NCBI GenBank assembly: GCA_947389015.1
Contig: CANDVA010000016.1
Span: 1-64,000 of the forward strand
Direction of reading: 5' to 3'
DNA: 64,000 nt
DNA from: an uncultured Clostridia bacterium
GTDB taxonomy: Bacteria > Bacillota > Clostridia > Oscillospirales > Ruminococcaceae
Part shown: piece after piece, positions 38,043 through 48,303 of the stretch
Numbering within the stretch: the first letter of the stretch is position 1
Layout of the letters: every line of letters starts with the position of its first letter
Notes under the pieces: generated by a model
Seen by the model: only the letters and a program-made list of their open reading frames with translations
Databases searched by the model: none
What the model was told of the DNA's origin: nothing
Translations under genes and position numbers: made by a program

Positions 38043-38765
38043 ATGACGACGGAAGGATTTGTAAAGCTGCCGAGAACAATGCTCGAATGGGGTTGGCTCT
38101 ACGACGGAAACACGTTAAAGGTATATCTGGTGCTGCTGCTTTCCGCGAACTGGAAAGACGGCGAATGGCACGGTATAAAGGTAAAGCGCGGACAAATTAT
38201 CACGGGGCGCGACAGTCTCGCTCAAAAGTGCGGACTGAGTGTTCGCCAAGTAAAAACGGCGCTGGAGCACCTGAAATCGACCAACGATATAACAATAAAA
38301 ACGACCTCAAAATTCAGCATAATAACGCTGAATAATTACGACCCCGCGGAGAATATCAACAGCGAAACGACCAACAAACGCCCAACCAACGACCAACCGC
38401 CGACCAACGAACGACCCGCAAGCGACCAACAAGCGACCACAATAGAAGAAAGAAAAGAAGAAAAAGAAATAAAAGAAAGGGAAGAAGCGGCTGCGCCGCC
38501 CTCCCCTCCCTCTTTTATTTCCTCCGAAACTCCCGTTACAAAGGACGAGCTGACAGCCCGATACGGCGCTGAGAACATATTGCTTTACGAAACGAAATTC
38601 GACAATTGGGCGTCAAAAAAGGGCATAACCGACTTCTCCAAAATGTACCCGACCATTGCCAAGTGGCTTGCCGCCGACAACGTTCAAATGCCGCACAAAA
38701 GCTCGTTCGATATGAGAAACGAAATGCAGAGGATAACGGACAAATACAAAAAAGCGGAGGACTAA
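38043..38765 (+). CDS. Phage-type replication (replisome organiser-like) protein
   Basis: 240 residues. The N-terminal winged helix (about 5-95) starts GFVKLPRTMLEWGWLYDGN and contains GQIITGRDSLAQKCGLSVRQVKTALEHL, a pattern of phage replication proteins with DnaD-like architecture. The middle is low complexity (Asn, Thr, Pro repeats, then Glu/Lys-rich, about 115-160). A C-terminal domain (about 170-235) with FDNWASKKGI may contact the helicase loader. AGGAG supports the ATG. It stands alone among host genes and its composition differs from them, indicating a phage or plasmid remnant. The stop overlaps the convergent ABC gene by four bases. Confidence 0.7.
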   Translation: MTTEGFVKLPRTMLEWGWLYDGNTLKVYLVLLLSANWKDGEWHGIKVKRGQIITGRDSLAQKCGLSVRQVKTALEHLKSTNDITIKTTSKFSIITLNNYDPAENINSETTNKRPTNDQPPTNERPASDQQATTIEERKEEKEIKEREEAAAPPSPPSFISSETPVTKDELTARYGAENILLYETKFDNWASKKGITDFSKMYPTIAKWLAADNVQMPHKSSFDMRNEMQRITDKYKKAED

Positions 38766-39343
38766 TCCTCCGCTCCCAATTCGATTATCTCGTCCGCAAA
38801 CGCGGCGCACTCGTCCCTGTCGTGAGTGACGAACACGACCGTTTTGCCCTCCGTTTTACGTCTGCAATAGTCGAGAACTATCCGCTTGGTGTCCGCGTCG
38901 AGACCCTTGAACGGCTCGTCGAGGAAAAGCGTGTCATACTCGGCGAGCAGCGCGCGGAGCAGCGCCGTTCGGCGCTTCATTCCTCCCGAAAGCTCGCGGA
39001 CGGGCTTGTCGGCGCAGTCGGCGAGACCGACCGCCGCAAGCTCGGCGGCGATCTGTTCACGGGTGTAACGCCTGCCCGTCACGAGCCTTATATTCGCGCT
39101 CGCGGTAAGGTTCTCGCAGAGCCTGTCCTCCTGAAACACCGCGCTTATACGCTCGTTTTCGCCGCGCAGGATTTCGCCGCCGTCGGGCTTTATCAGTCCC
39201 ATAAGGACGTTCAGCAGCGTGCTCTTGCCGCAGCCCGACTTGCCGAGCACGGCGGTCACCCTGCCGTCGGCGAACTCGCGGGAGAAATTGTCCAGTACCG
39301 TGTTATCGCCGAATTTTTTGGTGATGTTTACAGCTTTGAGCAT
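38762..39343 (-). CDS. ABC importer ATPase, SsuB/TauB-like
   Basis: 193 residues, compact for the family (usually about 250). Walker A GKSGCGKST near 34-42, signature LSGGMKRRTALLRAL near 118, Walker B LFLDEPFKG near 138, H-loop FVTHDRDE near 172. The extra C-terminal part of SsuB is absent but all catalytic motifs are present. It energises the importer formed with the permease six bases upstream and the lipoprotein gene before it. Confidence 0.88.
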   Translation of the reverse strand: MLKAVNITKKFGDNTVLDNFSREFADGRVTAVLGKSGCGKSTLLNVLMGLIKPDGGEILRGENERISAVFQEDRLCENLTASANIRLVTGRRYTREQIAAELAAVGLADCADKPVRELSGGMKRRTALLRALLAEYDTLFLDEPFKGLDADTKRIVLDYCRRKTEGKTVVFVTHDRDECAAFADEIIELGAED

Positions 39344-39349
39344 AACCCC

Positions 39350-40105
39350 TCACATTCTCTCCACGCGGCGCTGCAAAAGCCCTATAAGCGTCACGAATAC
39401 CTTTTCGCAGAGCCAGCTCAGCAGTATGATCGCCAGCGTCCACGCGAACAGGTCCGCAGTCTCCAGATATACCTTTGACTCGAAAAGCTTCTCGCCGATC
39501 GAGCCGTCGGGTATGCCGATGACCTCCGCGGCTACTCCCGACTTCCAACAAAGCCCTATCGCGAGCCGCGACGCGGAACGGAAATAGGGCAGCAGCTGCG
39601 ACAGATAAACGCCGATAAACCGCCTGCCGAGAGGTATTTTGAACACCCCCGACATCTCCTTCAGCTTCGGGTCAAGACTGTCGATACCCTCCAGCATATT
39701 CGCGCAGACTATCGGCACGCATATCAGAAACGACACGAGCACCGACAAGTCCTTTGAGCCTATCCAGATAAGCGCCAGTATCGTGAACGACGCGACGGGT
39801 ATCGACTTCATAGCGCTGATAAGCGGCGAAAGCAGCGCCCTTATAACGCGCGACTTGCCCATTCCCCACGCGAGCAGACACCCGCAACTAAGCCCGAGAG
39901 CGAAGCCGAGCAGTATCCTCCCCGCGGAGAACAGCACGCTCCGCCAAAATCCGCCCGTCGGGACAAGCTCCGCGAGCCGTTTCACGACCTCGGCGGGCGA
40001 CACGAGCAATATTTTGCTGTTCAGCCTTACGGCGGCTATCTGCCAGACGATAAGCCAGAACAGTATGCCCGCCGCGGTAATGAGAGCTTTTTTTACTTTA
40101 GTCAT
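39350..40105 (-). CDS. ABC importer permease, SsuC/TauC-like
   Basis: 251-residue permease with six hydrophobic segments. The cytoplasmic EAA-type loop has AMKSIPVASFTILALIWIG and, near residue 150, KLKEMSGVFKIPLGRRF. Typical of the nitrate/sulfonate/taurine/thiamine-precursor group. Partner of the SsuB-like ATPase and the NMT1-type binding protein. The transported compound is not identified. Confidence 0.88.
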   Translation of the reverse strand: MTKVKKALITAAGILFWLIVWQIAAVRLNSKILLVSPAEVVKRLAELVPTGGFWRSVLFSAGRILLGFALGLSCGCLLAWGMGKSRVIRALLSPLISAMKSIPVASFTILALIWIGSKDLSVLVSFLICVPIVCANMLEGIDSLDPKLKEMSGVFKIPLGRRFIGVYLSQLLPYFRSASRLAIGLCWKSGVAAEVIGIPDGSIGEKLFESKVYLETADLFAWTLAIILLSWLCEKVFVTLIGLLQRRVERM

Positions 40106-40115
40106 TATTTAGTCA

Positions 40116-41222
40116 TTATCCGGGAAACTCATACGCGTAATAGAAATCGTCCGCGGGCAGCTTGCCGCCGACCGCCTTGGGCTCGTTGTCGAAAAGCACC
40201 TGCAAATAGCCGCCGAGCTTGGTCTTCATTTCCTCTCCCGTAATGCAGACGATATTGCACTCGGGTATCGCCTTTTTCGCGACCGCCGCGGGCACTATAT
40301 CGTACTTTCCAACAAGCTCCGCCGCCTCGTCGACGTTGTTGTTGACGAAATCCACGGACGCGTGATAGCGGCTGAGGAACTCGTTGACCGCCTCGGGATT
40401 ACTGTCCGCAAACTCCTTGCGCGCGATAACGATACCCGTCAGCAGCGAGCTGTCAACGTTCAGGTCGTCCCACGCGTCGTTAAGGTCTATCGCCACGCGC
40501 ACGCCCTCGTTCTTGGTCTGCGCGGTGGTCACGAACGGCTGAGGGAGCATTGCGACGCTGTTCTCCGTCGCGAGCAGCGAGGCGAGGCACTCCGCGTGCT
40601 CGCTCTTCCACTCGATGGTCACGTCCTTTTCGGGGTCTATATCGTTGCTTTTTAAGATAAAGTTAAGCGCGTACTCGGGCGTTGCGCCCTTGCCCGACGA
40701 GAATATCGTCTTGCCCTTTAAGTCCTCAACGGACGTTACCGTATCGCCGTTCTCGCAGATATACAGCACGCCGAGAGTGTTCACGGCAAGCGCCCTAACG
40801 CCGCCCTCGGTCTTATTGTACAGCACGCTGCCGAGGTTCGCGGGGACGCACACGATATCCGCCGTGCCCTGCGCTATCATGGGCGATATCTCGTCGACCG
40901 CCGCCACTATCTCGAATTCGTACTCATTCAAGCCCTCGCTGTCGCTCATCAGCTTGGTCATGCCCATTGCGGTCGGACCCTTGAGCGCCGCGACCCTTAC
41001 GGGCGCATTGTCGGGAGCCGTATTCTCGGGAACGCTCTCGACGGTGCTGTCCGAGCTTTCGGGAGCGCTGCTCTCGGAGCTTGAGCTTGTCGAGCTTTCG
41101 GACGAGGACGAGCCGTTATCAGAGCTTGAATTACCCGAATTCGAGCCGTTGTCCGAGCAAGCCGCGAACGTAAGGCACATAGCCGCAGCGAGCACGCTCG
41201 ATAAAATCTTCTTCAATTTCAT
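40116..41222 (-). CDS. ABC importer binding lipoprotein, NMT1/SsuA-like
   Basis: 368 residues from the ATG at 41222 (GGAAGG upstream; signal peptide then starts cleanly). Lipobox at LTFAACS with the lipidated Cys at about residue 22, then a Ser/Asn/Glu-rich linker to about residue 80, then a periplasmic-binding-like domain with the NMT1/SsuA pattern (VRVAALKGPTAMGMTKL, GTADIVCVPANLGSVLYN, LKGKTIFSSGKG). It captures the substrate for the SsuBC-like partner proteins. Expression is probably controlled by the leader at 41257-41442. Confidence 0.88.
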   Translation of the reverse strand: MKLKKILSSVLAAAMCLTFAACSDNGSNSGNSSSDNGSSSSESSTSSSSESSAPESSDSTVESVPENTAPDNAPVRVAALKGPTAMGMTKLMSDSEGLNEYEFEIVAAVDEISPMIAQGTADIVCVPANLGSVLYNKTEGGVRALAVNTLGVLYICENGDTVTSVEDLKGKTIFSSGKGATPEYALNFILKSNDIDPEKDVTIEWKSEHAECLASLLATENSVAMLPQPFVTTAQTKNEGVRVAIDLNDAWDDLNVDSSLLTGIVIARKEFADSNPEAVNEFLSRYHASVDFVNNNVDEAAELVGKYDIVPAAVAKKAIPECNIVCITGEEMKTKLGGYLQVLFDNEPKAVGGKLPADDFYYAYEFPG

Positions 41223-41256: not shown

Positions 41257-41280
41257 AAAAAACGCGTCTCGAAAGACGCG
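41257..41280 (-). terminator. Leader terminator before the binding-protein gene
   Basis: On the minus strand CGCGTCT-TTCG-AGACGCG (perfect 7-bp stem, UUCG tetraloop) followed by TTTTTTG, 35 bases before the ATG at 41222. Its position inside the 5' leader indicates transcription attenuation. Confidence 0.8.
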
Positions 41281-41411
41281 GAAAACGCGGCAATGCCGCG
41301 GTGTATTCATTCGGCGTTCTTTCGGCTCAATGTAAAATTTTGCCGTCAGTAAAAATCCGCAAGACCGCATTCCGTCGGTATCGCCCTGAGGTCTGCTTTC
41401 CGCTTGCGGAT
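41281..41411 (-). ncRNA. Structured 5' leader, candidate riboswitch of unknown class
   Basis: The transcript from the promoter at 41414-41442 begins in ATCCGCAAG (41411-41403), which pairs perfectly with CTTGCGGAT (41363-41355) and closes a loop of about 40 bases containing AGACC/GGTCT arms. Next come a CGGC/GCCG hairpin (near 41309-41345), a CGCGGC/GCCGCG hairpin (41286-41300) and then the terminator. I compared it with the conserved cores I know (TPP, SAM-I, lysine, glycine, guanidine-I, purine, fluoride, THF, preQ1) and found no match. Confidence 0.5.
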
Positions 41412-41413
41412 AT

Positions 41414-41442
41414 ATTATAGCATATTGTTAATCGTTTGTCAA
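41414..41442 (-). promoter_or_regulatory. Perfect consensus promoter of the ABC importer operon
   Basis: TTGACA (41442-41437), exactly 17 bases, TATAAT (41419-41414) on the minus strand. Transcription would start at about 41407, within the first arm of the leader's closing stem. Confidence 0.8.
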
Positions 41443-43956: not shown

Positions 43957-44562
43957 TTATATATCGTACTTCTCCAGTATCTCGTTGTATATATCCCTTT
44001 GGAAATTCTGCTCGCTGTATACGCCGAGATCCGAACTGTCCGAAAGCGGCATAGGAGCGTTTTCGGCGCTTGGAATGGGATAGCGTCCGTCGCTGTCGCC
44101 CGCGCAATAATATACATCCGAATCGGAATCCTTTGTCAGGAAGAACAGCCACTCGTCGCCCTTCTGCATAGGAGTAAGATCACTGAATGTTACCAGATCG
44201 CCGTCGACGATGCCGTATTCCTGAACGATTTGGAGAGTATCGCCGATATTTGCATTTCCGATTAAGACCTTTTCCACTTCAATGGTGTTTTTTGAGGTTA
44301 CAAAATAAAGGATATCTTTTCCGAAAAATTCACTGTAACGATACCTTTCATTCTGTTCAGAATCGTCTATAAATTTTCCCACCACCATAAGATCAACATG
44401 ATCCTCCAACGCGTCAAGATCCTCGAAAACTCTTCTGTTGGCAAAACCTGTCCTCACCAGCTTGATATTGTCAAAACCGTAAGAATTCTCCGGCGCTTTA
44501 TTGCAGGCTGTCAATGCCGCGCAAGCCGAAAGTACCGCAATTATTGCTGTAATTTTTTTCAT
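43957..44562 (-). CDS. Small lipoprotein 1, paralogue family
   Basis: 201 residues from the ATG at 44562 (GGGGGG upstream). Signal peptide with lipobox LTAC, lipidated Cys at about residue 20. The mature domain reads ALEDHVDLMVVGKFI, then IEVEKVLIGNANIGDTLQIVQEYG, GDLVTFSDLTPMQKGDEWLFFL, and GRYPIPSAEN; it ends NEILEKYDI. Order and spacing suggest a small beta-barrel such as the OB/NTR-like domain of secreted bacterial proteins. Nearly identical in pattern to lipoprotein 3 and more distant from lipoprotein 2. Function unknown. Confidence 0.8.
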   Translation of the reverse strand: MKKITAIIAVLSACAALTACNKAPENSYGFDNIKLVRTGFANRRVFEDLDALEDHVDLMVVGKFIDDSEQNERYRYSEFFGKDILYFVTSKNTIEVEKVLIGNANIGDTLQIVQEYGIVDGDLVTFSDLTPMQKGDEWLFFLTKDSDSDVYYCAGDSDGRYPIPSAENAPMPLSDSSDLGVYSEQNFQRDIYNEILEKYDI

Positions 44563-44616
44563 AATTAAGCCCCCCATTTCGCTTTTAAGCATGATCTCAT
44601 ATCCTATATTATCATT

Positions 44617-44645
44617 ATTATATACCAATATCGGCGCGTTGTCAA
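44617..44645 (-). promoter_or_regulatory. Consensus promoter of lipoprotein gene 1
   Basis: TTGACA (44645-44640), 17 bases, TATAAT (44622-44617) on the minus strand, about 55 bases before the ATG at 44562. Confidence 0.8.
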
Positions 44646-44649
44646 GGGA

Positions 44650-44675
44650 AAACGGCGCGGTTTTTCTGCCGCGCC
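44650..44675 (-). terminator. Terminator of lipoprotein gene 2
   Basis: GGCGCGG/CCGCGCC stem with an eight-base loop, followed on the minus strand by GTTTT. It lies directly before the next promoter; a near-identical copy is at 45381-45406. Confidence 0.7.
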
Positions 44676-44683
44676 GCGTATTT

Positions 44684-45292
44684 TTATATATCGTACTTTT
44701 CCAATATTTCGTTGTAGATATCCCGCTGGAAATTTCCCTCGGCGTATACTCCAAGCTCCGGGCTTTCCGAGAGCGACATCGGCTCGTTTTCGGCGCTCGG
44801 AACGGGATAACGTCCGAAAGTATCGCTTGCGCACCAATAACCGTTGAGGTCTGTGCTGTTCCTCAGAAAGAACAGCCACTTGTCGCCTTTTTGCATAGGA
44901 GTAAGATCGCTGAAAGAGATCAGTCTACCGTCAGCGATACCGTAGCGTTGGTGTACATCAACGCAGTCGCCCTCCTCTATATCACCCTTGAACACCTTGC
45001 TGACACGAATGGTATTGGTTGATTGAATGTTTATAATCAGATCCTTCTGAAAGTCGGCGTCATACTGATAATCGGTATCCTGATTGTCGTCTCCGATAAA
45101 CTCTCCGATAACGATCACATGACTGTCCTTTTCAAGCTGCGCAAGGTCCTCATATACCACTCTGTCGCTGTGCCATCTTACCAGCTCCAGTCCGTCGTAT
45201 TTATCGGAAACAGTACTTTCATCCGCTGTGTTGCAGGCTGTCAACGTTACGCATACTGCAAATACGGTGATTATTGAGATAAGTTTTTTCAT
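44684..45292 (-). CDS. Small lipoprotein 2, divergent paralogue
   Basis: 202 residues with lipobox LTAC (Cys at about residue 20). It shares the family plan with its neighbours: DSHVIVIGEFIGDD, IRVSKVFKGDIEEGDCVDVHQRYG, ISFSDLTPMQKGDKWLFFL, and the end NEILEKYDI. Roughly half the residues match lipoproteins 1 and 3 by eye. The conserved G-D-x-W-L-F-F-L and the V-x-K-V-x-x-G segments probably form the core strands. It has its own promoter and terminator. No function is recognised. Confidence 0.8.
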   Translation of the reverse strand: MKKLISIITVFAVCVTLTACNTADESTVSDKYDGLELVRWHSDRVVYEDLAQLEKDSHVIVIGEFIGDDNQDTDYQYDADFQKDLIINIQSTNTIRVSKVFKGDIEEGDCVDVHQRYGIADGRLISFSDLTPMQKGDKWLFFLRNSTDLNGYWCASDTFGRYPVPSAENEPMSLSESPELGVYAEGNFQRDIYNEILEKYDI

Positions 45293-45347
45293 TGTTATGC
45301 CCCCATTTCGCTTTTAATCTTGATCCTTCATAGCCTGTATTACCATT

Positions 45348-45376
45348 ATTATATACCAACATCGGCGCGTTGTCAA
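45348..45376 (-). promoter_or_regulatory. Consensus promoter of lipoprotein gene 2
   Basis: TTGACA (45376-45371), 17 bases, TATAAT (45353-45348) on the minus strand, about 55 bases before the start at 45292. Confidence 0.8.
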
Positions 45377-45380
45377 GGGA

Positions 45381-45406
45381 AAACGGCGCGGTTCTTCTGC
45401 CGCGCC
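45381..45406 (-). terminator. Terminator of lipoprotein gene 3
   Basis: GGCGCGG/CCGCGCC stem with an eight-base loop and GTTTT on the minus strand, a duplicate of the one at 44650-44675. Confidence 0.7.
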
Positions 45407-45414
45407 GCGTATTT

Positions 45415-46020
45415 TTATATATCGTACTTTTCCAATATCTCGTTGTAGGTATTCCACATGAAGTTCTGCTCGTCGTATACGCCTAGATCGGGGCAGTCCG
45501 AAAGCGGCATTGGTTCGTTTTCAGCGTTCGGTACAGGAAAGCGCCCGTCACTGTCGCCCGCGCAAAAATATATGTCCGAATCGGACTCCTTTTTCAGGAA
45601 GAACAGCCACTCATCGCCCTTCTGCATTGGAGTAAGATCGCTGAATGTTACCAAATCGCCGTCGACGATACCATAATCCTGAACGATTTGGAGAGTATCG
45701 CCTATTTCCGCGTCTCCTATCAGAACCTTTTCAATTTCAATGGTGTTTGTTGAGGTTACAAAATAAAGGACATCTTTTCCGAAAAATTCGTTGTAACGAT
45801 ATCTTTCCTCCTGTTCGGGATCGCCCGTAAATTTTCCCACTACCGCAAGATCAACATAATCCTCCAACGCGGCAAGGTTCTCAAATACTCTTCTATTGGC
45901 AAAACCAGTTCTCACCAGCTTTATATCGTCAAAGTCGTTAAAATTTTCAGTAGATTTATTGCACGCTGTCAGCAACGCGCAAGCCGCAAGCACCGTAATT
46001 ATTGCTGTAATTTTTTTCAT
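45415..46020 (-). CDS. Small lipoprotein 3, coupled to the protease gene
   Basis: 201 residues from the ATG at 46020; the adjacent ATG at 46023 overlaps the protease stop as TAATG and is the alternative. GGGGGG is seven bases upstream of 46020. Lipobox LTAC at about residue 20. Same plan as lipoprotein 1 (ALEDYVDLAVVGKFTGD, IEIEKVLIGDAEIGDTLQIVQDYG, QKGDEWLFFL, end NEILEKYDI), with most positions identical. It is cotranscribed and translationally coupled with the metzincin-like protease gene, which suggests a functional pair. Confidence 0.8.
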   Translation of the reverse strand: MKKITAIITVLAACALLTACNKSTENFNDFDDIKLVRTGFANRRVFENLAALEDYVDLAVVGKFTGDPEQEERYRYNEFFGKDVLYFVTSTNTIEIEKVLIGDAEIGDTLQIVQDYGIVDGDLVTFSDLTPMQKGDEWLFFLKKESDSDIYFCAGDSDGRFPVPNAENEPMPLSDCPDLGVYDEQNFMWNTYNEILEKYDI

Positions 46021-46022
46021 CA

Positions 46023-46682
46023 TTATGCCCCCCATTTCGCTTTTAAGCATGACTTGTCGTGTCCGGTAATTGTTGATGACACAGCACCGCCGTAATCCCC
46101 GGGAAATCCTTGATTCATAATTGCCACCGGTTTGCCGTCTATCGTATGTCCGCCGAGACCGCGGCTTATGAAGGGGTGCGTCAACTTCAGCACATGACCC
46201 ACTTCATGAACAAACGTCATTTGTGCGGCAAGTTTAGGATCAGAAGCAACGCTAAACACACTTGAATTTGTATTCATCGTTATATCGGCATACGCCCAAT
46301 CGCTGATCAAACCATCAATTGAGGTGTCTAGCGGCTTACCGTTTGAATCATACGGAGTGGTGTAACCTAAAAGCCGCTCTCCCAAATTATCACCATAAAC
46401 ATTTATTCCATCGTCAATTGTAGTTCTTGCATTTATAACAAAAGATACGTTTACTCTCACATTGCTGCTTATCCCATTCCAATCACGAGCACTCCGATAA
46501 ATGTCGGAAGTTAAAAAATCTGTCTGTGCACTCCTACTGATTCTCAAGGTGAATTTTGCATCTTCATATCCTATGTATTTTCCTGCCCAATAATCTTCGG
46601 GGTGCGCCGAAGCCGTGCTTGTCAGCATAACGGCGGTGAGCACTCCAGCAAGCATTGGTATGACCCGCTTTTTAATTTTCAT
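46023..46682 (-). CDS. Secreted metzincin-like zinc protease
   Basis: 219 residues. Signal peptide to about residue 26 (ending STASA). The zinc site is FVHEVGHVLKLTHP near residue 160, fitting H-E-x-x-H-x-x-x-x-x-H; position 8 is Lys where metzincins usually have Gly. A Met-turn candidate IMNQG follows about 25 residues later. Small secreted proteases of this kind occur in Firmicutes and act on proteins outside the cell. It shares a promoter with lipoprotein 3. Weak point: the Gly-to-Lys change leaves the exact clan uncertain. Confidence 0.78.
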   Translation of the reverse strand: MKIKKRVIPMLAGVLTAVMLTSTASAHPEDYWAGKYIGYEDAKFTLRISRSAQTDFLTSDIYRSARDWNGISSNVRVNVSFVINARTTIDDGINVYGDNLGERLLGYTTPYDSNGKPLDTSIDGLISDWAYADITMNTNSSVFSVASDPKLAAQMTFVHEVGHVLKLTHPFISRGLGGHTIDGKPVAIMNQGFPGDYGGAVSSTITGHDKSCLKAKWGA

Positions 46683-48099: not shown

Positions 48100-48111
48100 G
48101 GAGAGTGTAAT

Positions 48112-48276
48112 GATAGAGGCGCGGGGCTGAAGAGTATTGCCGCATAAACGCTTTACGGAGAGCGCGGCAGGAAAGGCAGTACCGCCGAGGAGTGTACGAT
48201 CCGCAGCGTGCATATCCGGCTGTACGTTCAACAGGCGTGCGGCTGTCATCGGCAATGCTTGATGGAGTGCTATCGC
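48112..48276 (+). ncRNA. Lysine riboswitch (L-box)
   Basis: The L-box core elements occur in order: GATAGAGGCGC at the 5' closing stem, GAAGAGTA, GGAGAGCGCGGC, GCCGAGG, CGGCTGTCATCGGC, and GGAGTGCTATC closing the first stem. The aptamer binds lysine and promotes formation of the terminator at 48304-48330, lowering expression of asd and the dap genes when lysine is abundant. Confidence 0.92.
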
Positions 48277-48303
48277 ATAAAAATTGCGGCATTTTAAGGC
48301 AAC

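Follow-up and report, generated by a model that had tools for sequence, protein, structure and literature searches.

A candidate attenuator RNA class upstream of an NMT1/SsuA-like importer operon and of [FeFe]-hydrogenase cofactor genes in Clostridia

The leader at positions 41442-41257 (minus strand) of the window, i.e., of the whole 64,000-nucleotide stretch from an uncultured member of the Ruminococcaceae analyzed here, precedes an operon for an NMT1/SsuA-like ABC importer. We propose that it belongs to a new class of cis-acting attenuator RNA that would control a regulon for H-cluster supply by a terminator/antiterminator mechanism. From the comparison of related sequences we assign a probability of about 0.78 to this joint reading, in which the effector is not included. 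The comparison showed a small hairpin unit, single or in tandem, whose 3′ strand has two predicted partners, the other strand of the unit and the 5′ arm of the terminator. It also showed this unit 5′ of genes assigned as TM1266, HydE, HydF and HydG and, in the genus of the window, 5′ of a TM1266/importer operon. TM1266, HydE, HydF and HydG either build the [FeFe]-hydrogenase H-cluster or are putative regulators of it; from the position of their genes behind the RNA elsewhere, we therefore assign the regulon to H-cluster supply.

The features of the leader and of the operon that follows it are listed below.

41414..41442, minus strand: promoter TTGACA (41442-41437), 17 nt, TATAAT (41419-41414), read directly in the sequence
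41403..41411, minus strand: 5′ arm of the closing stem P1, ATCCGCAAG, 9/9 pairs with 41355-41363
41367..41396, minus strand: unit 1, consisting of P2 (GCA/UGC), GA/AA loop, P3, CA/GA loop and P4; from the alignment and P2-P4 covariation
41355..41363, minus strand: 3′ arm of P1, CTTGCGGAT; from the fold, manual alignment and arm-exchange control
41319..41349, minus strand: unit 2, core hairpin CU-GA-CGGC-AA-..-GA-GCCG-AA-AG; from the descriptor and covariation in 30 sequences
41318..41324, minus strand: antiterminator strand CGAAAGA, 7/7 complementary to UCUUUCG at 41276-41270
41286..41300, minus strand: linker hairpin CGCGGC-AUU-GCCGCG; from the fold, variable among relatives
41257..41280, minus strand: intrinsic terminator CGCGUCU-UUCG-AGACGCG (41280-41263) with U6 (41262-41257); from sequence and fold
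40116..41222, minus strand: NMT1/SsuA-like substrate-binding lipoprotein (PF09084, E 1.1e-10; TIGR01728, E 1.7e-15, below cut-off)
39350..40105, minus strand: ABC permease (PF00528, E 3e-15)
38762..39343, minus strand: ABC ATPase (PF00005, E 1.2e-27)

A sequence-only reading of the window had described a perfect promoter, a 9-bp closing stem, two further hairpins and a UUCG-capped terminator followed by six U's, all 5′ of the binding-protein gene, and each of these parts was found: P1 (41411-41403 with 41363-41355) forms all nine pairs, the two hairpins lie at 41349-41319 and 41300-41286, and the gene starts with an ATG at 41222. At the usual spacing from TATAAT, the predicted start site falls inside the P1 5′ arm, where it had been placed before, and given this site the outer three to four P1 pairs may be left untranscribed. 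In 20 of 23 genus leaders, a TTGAC-N17..19-TA[TA]A[AT]T string lies no more than 200 nt 5′ of the core. The window leader folds with −59.4 kcal/mol, compared with −50.6 ± 4.2 kcal/mol for shuffled sequences (z −2.1; 7/200 as low). Fold energy alone thus lends modest support to a structure; it is conservation and covariation in the relatives that show the structure to be real.

A point absent from the earlier description is that the hairpin within P1 and the one following it share the same double internal-loop plan. The unit core, present in tandem in the window, is a CU-GA-N4-RA-loop-GA-N4′-RA-AG hairpin. It carries 5′-GA-N4-RA-3′ on each strand, and the site is therefore dyad-symmetric. From an alignment of 20 leaders, the P1-internal hairpin follows the plan P2-[GA/AA]-P3-[NA/GA]-P4 and the second hairpin the plan CU-[GA/AA]-CGGY/RCCG-[RA/GA]-stem-loop. 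Unit 1 keeps to this pattern less strictly in the genus: its P3 has 3 bp, and some loops read AA or UU. The apical loops of the units vary in length and sequence.

When the whole window was scanned with Rfam 15, no family reached its gathering score at the leader, in line with the first impression that its core matched no familiar class; at E ≤ 10 there were only two irrelevant sub-threshold matches. Likewise, 20 relatives gave only a tRNA at gathering score (in L132), and six relatives searched at E ≤ 5 only ten scattered sub-threshold matches. An Rfam match and a closing stem without covariation had been named beforehand as refuting conditions, and both checks came out in favor of the earlier reading: P1 pairs re-form with unrelated sequences across 20 leaders. 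In the manual alignment of these leaders, a mean of 5.60 of the six inner P1 pairs was formed. Swapping arms among the leaders lowered this mean to 3.31, with 4.05 as the maximum of 1000 such swaps; in 19/20 leaders the inner four pairs were complete. For P2-P7 in 33 sequences, 95.6% of cells were paired and double changes occurred at 10/15 pairs, compared with at most 42% and at most three, respectively, in slid controls. Unit 2 alone, in 30 sequences from many genera, was paired to 98.3% (control at most 49.6%), with double changes at 6/8 pairs. A strict unit descriptor found 21 units in 31 loci which, as in the loop, tail-terminator and second-unit analyses, were hand-picked from loci judged real; in 112 kb of other sequence, both strands, with the window included, it found only the known unit. 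As is typical for riboswitches, a conserved, covarying, aptamer-like structure hence lies 5′ of metabolic genes.

The terminator downstream has a 5′ arm complementary to the 3′ strand of unit 2. In the window, the matching UCUUUCG is part of the terminator 5′ arm and loop; the top-scoring tail match in our scan was a different 9-nt stretch just 3′ of the terminator. In silico, a switchable expression platform was present as a terminator-like hairpin, assigned by rule, in 52/56 leaders (4/56 without), or as a Shine-Dalgarno-adjacent unit at HydG (6/47 class loci, see below). Of the 52 leaders with such a hairpin, 41 had a tail able to form at least six contiguous pairs with the terminator 5′ arm and loop, and 11 had fewer pairs. 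Examples of tail complementarity are GAAAGAC/GTCTTTC, found in many leaders of the genus, and AAAGGC/GCCTTT in L102 and L118. Complementarity of tails to their own downstream regions averaged 18.4 over 56 leaders, compared with 16.2 ± 0.36 for exchanged pairs, the highest mean among 300 exchanged sets being 17.2. The effect is modest because the tails resemble one another. For the window we calculated −27.7 kcal/mol for unit plus terminator and −24.0 kcal/mol for the CGAAAGA:UCUUUCG antiterminator, which is 3.7 kcal/mol weaker. Over 16 leaders, 0.3 to 5.0 kcal/mol separated the fold with the unit formed from the top-scoring alternative tail pairing; this pairing does not always lie in the terminator 5′ arm, and in the window it does not. 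The layout of a terminating regulatory leader, recognized beforehand from the letters, accordingly stands as that of a conserved, covarying and Rfam-unknown leader with terminator and antiterminator 5′ of the importer operon.

In the mechanism that we propose, transcription would start at or just inside P1. With the effector absent, pairing of the terminator arm with the 3′ strand of unit 2 would allow the operon to be read. An effector signalling enough cofactor would stabilize the GA/RA units, the terminator would form, and expression would stop. The RNA would act as an OFF switch of the feedback type, a direction suggested by the pairing of unit and terminator.

To map the distribution of the leader, an exact-core scan was run over one genome per bacterial or archaeal species. 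It returned 29 stretches, 22 of them window-type leaders; 19 of these were seen with context, and L068, L079 and L080 were assigned because their contigs have the lengths of contigs whose loci had been read before. Seven stretches were not at such operons and were left out. A pattern search in 43 genomes of the genus gave 25 places, 23 of which were the leader and two chance matches (L037, L056). With the covariance model R1, 35 places in 34/43 genus genomes were judged real by context; the two weakest accepted had E 0.008 and E 0.01, matches below these were taken as chance, and L121-L129 were left out. The downstream gene was readable at 34 of the 35 places, the remaining one reaching a contig end. 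It was TM1266-like at 26/34 places and the importer binding protein at 7/34, the window among them, and at one place (L120) HydE came first, followed by HydG. Adjacency of TM1266 as a requirement is ruled out by the seven places without it. Two leaders (L035, L055) appeared partly degraded and stand outside the 56-leader terminator set. In two genus genomes that were checked (G305, G318), HydE and the leader are both present.

Beyond the genus, model R2 matched in 23/297 genomes of the family and 18/295 of the order. With genus members and repeats removed, 13/18 new family loci were at TM1266, HydE, HydF or HydG genes and 5/18 elsewhere; for the order these were 5/12 and 7/12, respectively (left out as elsewhere: L131, L142, L145-L147, L153-L159). 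Four of the loci at such genes consisted of TM1266 with a FecCD-type permease, and at L150 and L151 HydG was the second gene downstream of the unit. An NCBIfam scan of ten downstream proteins identified eight as HydE, HydF or HydG over the cut-offs; the ninth was a HydG shortened by a contig end and below cut-off, the tenth a BtuC/FecCD-like permease below all cut-offs. In one other genus (L134, L136, L137, L139), a single unit directly follows the promoter of an operon of TM1266 and a BtuC/FecCD-type permease; these genomes have HydE, and with this permease a further type of importer comes under the RNA.

Model R3, which comprises one unit, was built from 30 sequences and is blind to gene content, matched in 51/391 genomes of the class Clostridia at E ≤ 0.05, a cut-off at which chance alone should give about 20, the E-values being rough due to a shortened calibration. 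Of these matches, 47 were newly read; G000, G063 and G156 were already known, and G422 (L154) had already been read and is not at TM1266 or HydE/F/G genes. With genes identified by BLASTP only, whereas the ten proteins above had been scanned with NCBIfam, 33/47 class loci were at TM1266 or HydE/F/G genes, 13 elsewhere (L220, L222, L226, L228, L230-L236, L252, L253; left out) and one undecided (L224). A terminator was not seen in 7 of the 33. In six of them (L237, L241, L251, L257, L259, L261) the unit adjoins the HydG Shine-Dalgarno sequence, output must therefore differ there, and a translational form of the switch is possible; in L243, the gene after HydE lies beyond the contig end. By rule, 6/49 non-genus leaders had another unit upstream, compared with a mean of 0.4 and a maximum of three after base shuffling. 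The occurrence of the unit in many families rules out a coincidental leader of a single genus. The earlier guess at the ligand, which pointed to thiamine precursors, sulfonates, guanidine or purines, is not supported, as the RNA fronts HydE, HydF, HydG and TM1266 in other genera; riboswitches for thiamine, sulfonates, purines or guanidine are ruled out by this Hyd regulon and by the missing Rfam match.

In TPP and cobalamin riboswitches, one leader class is common to cofactor biosynthesis genes and importers. The window RNA class likewise serves synthesis and importer genes with a terminator-type platform, but it has no Rfam relation to them, and its core is a small symmetric hairpin where theirs is a multi-helix junction. 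Guanidine-II (mini-ykkC) RNAs contain two small, similar tandem hairpins with conserved residues in the apical loops. The window leader has such a tandem as well, whereas its class is conserved in the internal loops with variable apical loops and gives no Rfam match. ANTAR (EutV/NasR) and BglG/LicT sites are tandem or single hairpins that overlap a terminator arm and are read by a protein oligomer, and ANTAR sites have a conserved hexaloop. The hairpins of the window class overlap the terminator arm in the same way, singly or in tandem; in contrast to ANTAR sites, they have no conserved hexanucleotide in the apical loops, which differ in both length and sequence, and no protein of the ANTAR or BglG/LicT kind was noticed beside the RNA when neighbors were viewed without profiles. 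With the NMT1 motif, a xanthine riboswitch, the leader shares only the name and the NMT1-like importer gene. That motif is described as exclusive to the Proteobacteria and as having almost no terminators (PMC7373994), whereas the window leader is clostridial, has a terminator and gives no Rfam match; the xanthine class was rejected on its failure to match in a library that should hold it.

As for the effector, we consider the chances about even that a TM1266-family protein reads the RNA and might sense the cofactor, a proposal of which we are less sure than of the OFF switch. NCBIfam names TM1266 an 'iron-only hydrogenase system putative regulator', a family that one genus protein matched at E 2.9e-32. 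It is a small, basic, NikR_C-like protein, with weak similarity to NikR_C itself (E 0.023, below cut-off), usually encoded beside the RNA in the genus. Basic residues are conserved in 40 TM1266 sequences (40/41 loci gave sequence). The gene was present in 11 of 12 genus genomes checked, in all 11 over the curated cut-off; the genome missing it (G320) is 90% complete. It is encoded elsewhere in six of the seven genomes whose leader has no neighboring TM1266, with G320 the exception. The window genome has a single TM1266 gene, far from the leader (G000:C9 38965-39189; L161, L182); in a by-eye look around it no Hyd gene was recognized. Neighborhood, presence in 11/12 genomes, basic residues and dyad symmetry point to putative binding, and a symmetric TM1266 oligomer would fit a dyad-symmetric RNA.

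That the hairpins are a conserved spacer before a plain terminator, without regulation, is a negligible prospect: a fold z of only −2.1 would fit, but compensatory changes throughout P1-P7, leader-specific antiterminator complementarity and recurrence of the RNA 5′ of one functional gene set argue against it, and we reject it on the covariation. More weight is due to a true riboswitch whose units bind a small molecule directly, without a protein, although we would lean against it. By analogy with TPP and cobalamin, candidate ligands would be iron, an intermediate, or some precursor of the H-cluster, e.g., of the Fe(CO)x(CN)y type. One RNA for both an importer and the HydE/F/G genes of biosynthesis would be usual riboswitch logic, the tandem arrangement of units is like that of tandem aptamers, and the RNA is kept at 7/34 genus operons without adjacent TM1266, including the window. 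The single-unit form, however, is small for an aptamer at about 30 nt, and besides its two 2x2 loops neither a junction nor a pseudoknot is visible; TM1266, moreover, is still found elsewhere in 6/7 genomes that do not have it beside the leader. Recognition by TM1266 is a serious rival to a riboswitch in the strict sense. Hairpins that are dyad-symmetric, vary in the loop and adjoin a terminator are a typical form of protein site, and they would also suit an attenuator read by some other protein; we regard this as improbable, TM1266 being the only regulator-like gene noticed to recur beside the RNA when neighbors were viewed without systematic profiling.

The importer operon consists of the genes for binding protein, permease and ATPase. 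In the binding protein, C322 is among the residues that are invariant in 28 orthologs (28/30 loci gave sequence). There is also an acidic run, E204, E208 and E211, the first two of which are found in 27/28 orthologs; C322 and this run are possible ligands of a metal complex. In 117 importer-bearing family genomes outside the genus, no leader match was judged real, and the importer is therefore controlled otherwise there. Several other genera have, at L007 and loci like it, a gene ahead of the importer gene that by eye resembles a Crp/Fnr-type regulator and takes the place of the RNA leader.

A role of the importer in the supply of the hydrogenase cofactor is suggested by the occurrence of the same RNA at the genes for building this cofactor in other Clostridia. 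As a presumed member of the H-cluster regulon, the window importer seems to stand in for HydE/HydG. The maturases compared with the importer were HydE, in 297 family genomes, and HydG, in the genomes tested. Among the 297, the binding protein was found in 122 (E ≤ 1e-20), HydE over cut-off in 143 and an [FeFe]-hydrogenase domain in 281. Importer and HydE occurred together in 15 genomes, compared with 58.7 expected (Fisher p 1e-26, for rows that are not independent; 1.3e-7 at genus level). HydG was over cut-off in none of the 14 importer-positive, HydE-negative genomes tested, two of which reached about 185 bits for HydG, where the cut-off is 312; G078 has both HydE and HydG. The hydrogenases of 15 importer-positive, HydE-negative genomes keep the motifs TSCSPGW and MPCxAKKxE. 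Eleven of them match E-x-M-x-CP-x-GC-xx-GGGQP in full; the other four are those of the window genus, where the window sequence reads EIMACPGGCVNGGGQI with its cysteines intact.

A hydrogenase tree of 80 of the 281 hydrogenase-bearing genomes, hand-chosen for all four importer/HydE states and thus neither a random sample nor a species tree, showed at least ten changes of the importer-only label on supported branches. Among independent pairs differing in the importer, HydE changed against the importer in a mean of 5.7 pairs and together with it in 0.0 (sign test: median p 0.031, range 0.016-0.22); when pairs were formed by HydE, the means were 4.9 and 0.0 (median p 0.0625). Four genera hold both importer-only and HydE-only species. 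Stratified within genera, importer and HydE showed no significant exclusion (CMH observed 11, expected 12.9, p 0.25). Neither HydE nor importer was found in 36/281 hydrogenase-bearing genomes; a third supply route, missing contigs or an inactive hydrogenase may be behind these.

Import of an H-cluster precursor would explain both the regulon membership and the HydE/HydG swap. In living E. coli and Synechocystis, apo-hydrogenase matures when the cells are given a synthetic di-iron complex (PMC6984386), so that import is chemically conceivable. Many Clostridia of this family might then no longer make the H-cluster and import a di-iron precursor or late intermediate of their neighbors via the NMT1/SsuA-like importer, with leader and TM1266 as a sensor of the balance of made or imported cofactor; this full scenario is speculative, and we think it unlikely as a whole. 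That the exclusivity is a by-product of ancestry, with a cargo unrelated to the H-cluster, is in turn a substantial possibility, if short of even odds. It would agree with the non-significant within-genus test, with the 36/281 genomes holding neither gene and the 15/297 holding both, and with a median p of only 0.0625 for pairing by HydE. Moreover, Giardia species and Spironucleus barkhanus are described as being without maturases (PMC11437800), and maturase absence alone therefore proves nothing. Against mere ancestry stand the ten or more supported-branch changes, the oppositely going pairs (5.7 versus 0.0, median p 0.031) and the control of the importer here and HydE/F/G elsewhere by the same RNA.

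In the titles and abstract openings that our searches of open-access literature returned, we found no RNA element or importer described for H-cluster supply, and nothing linking riboswitches or an ABC importer to the H-cluster or its genes. The RNA provides a concrete cis-element with which regulation of H-cluster assembly can be tested, and the importer-for-maturase swap a testable case of organometallic cofactor trade between bacteria.

Two further features of the window genome were noted. An ordinary lysine riboswitch (RF00168, 103.9 bits) lies at window positions 48106-48280 on the plus strand, 5′ of genes that by eye are asd- and dapA-like. Tandem paralogs of small lipoproteins with LTACN or TAFTGCDN signal sequences are encoded on the minus strand at window positions 43957-46050 and again, in the same genome, at L182 3783-7692 (minus strand).
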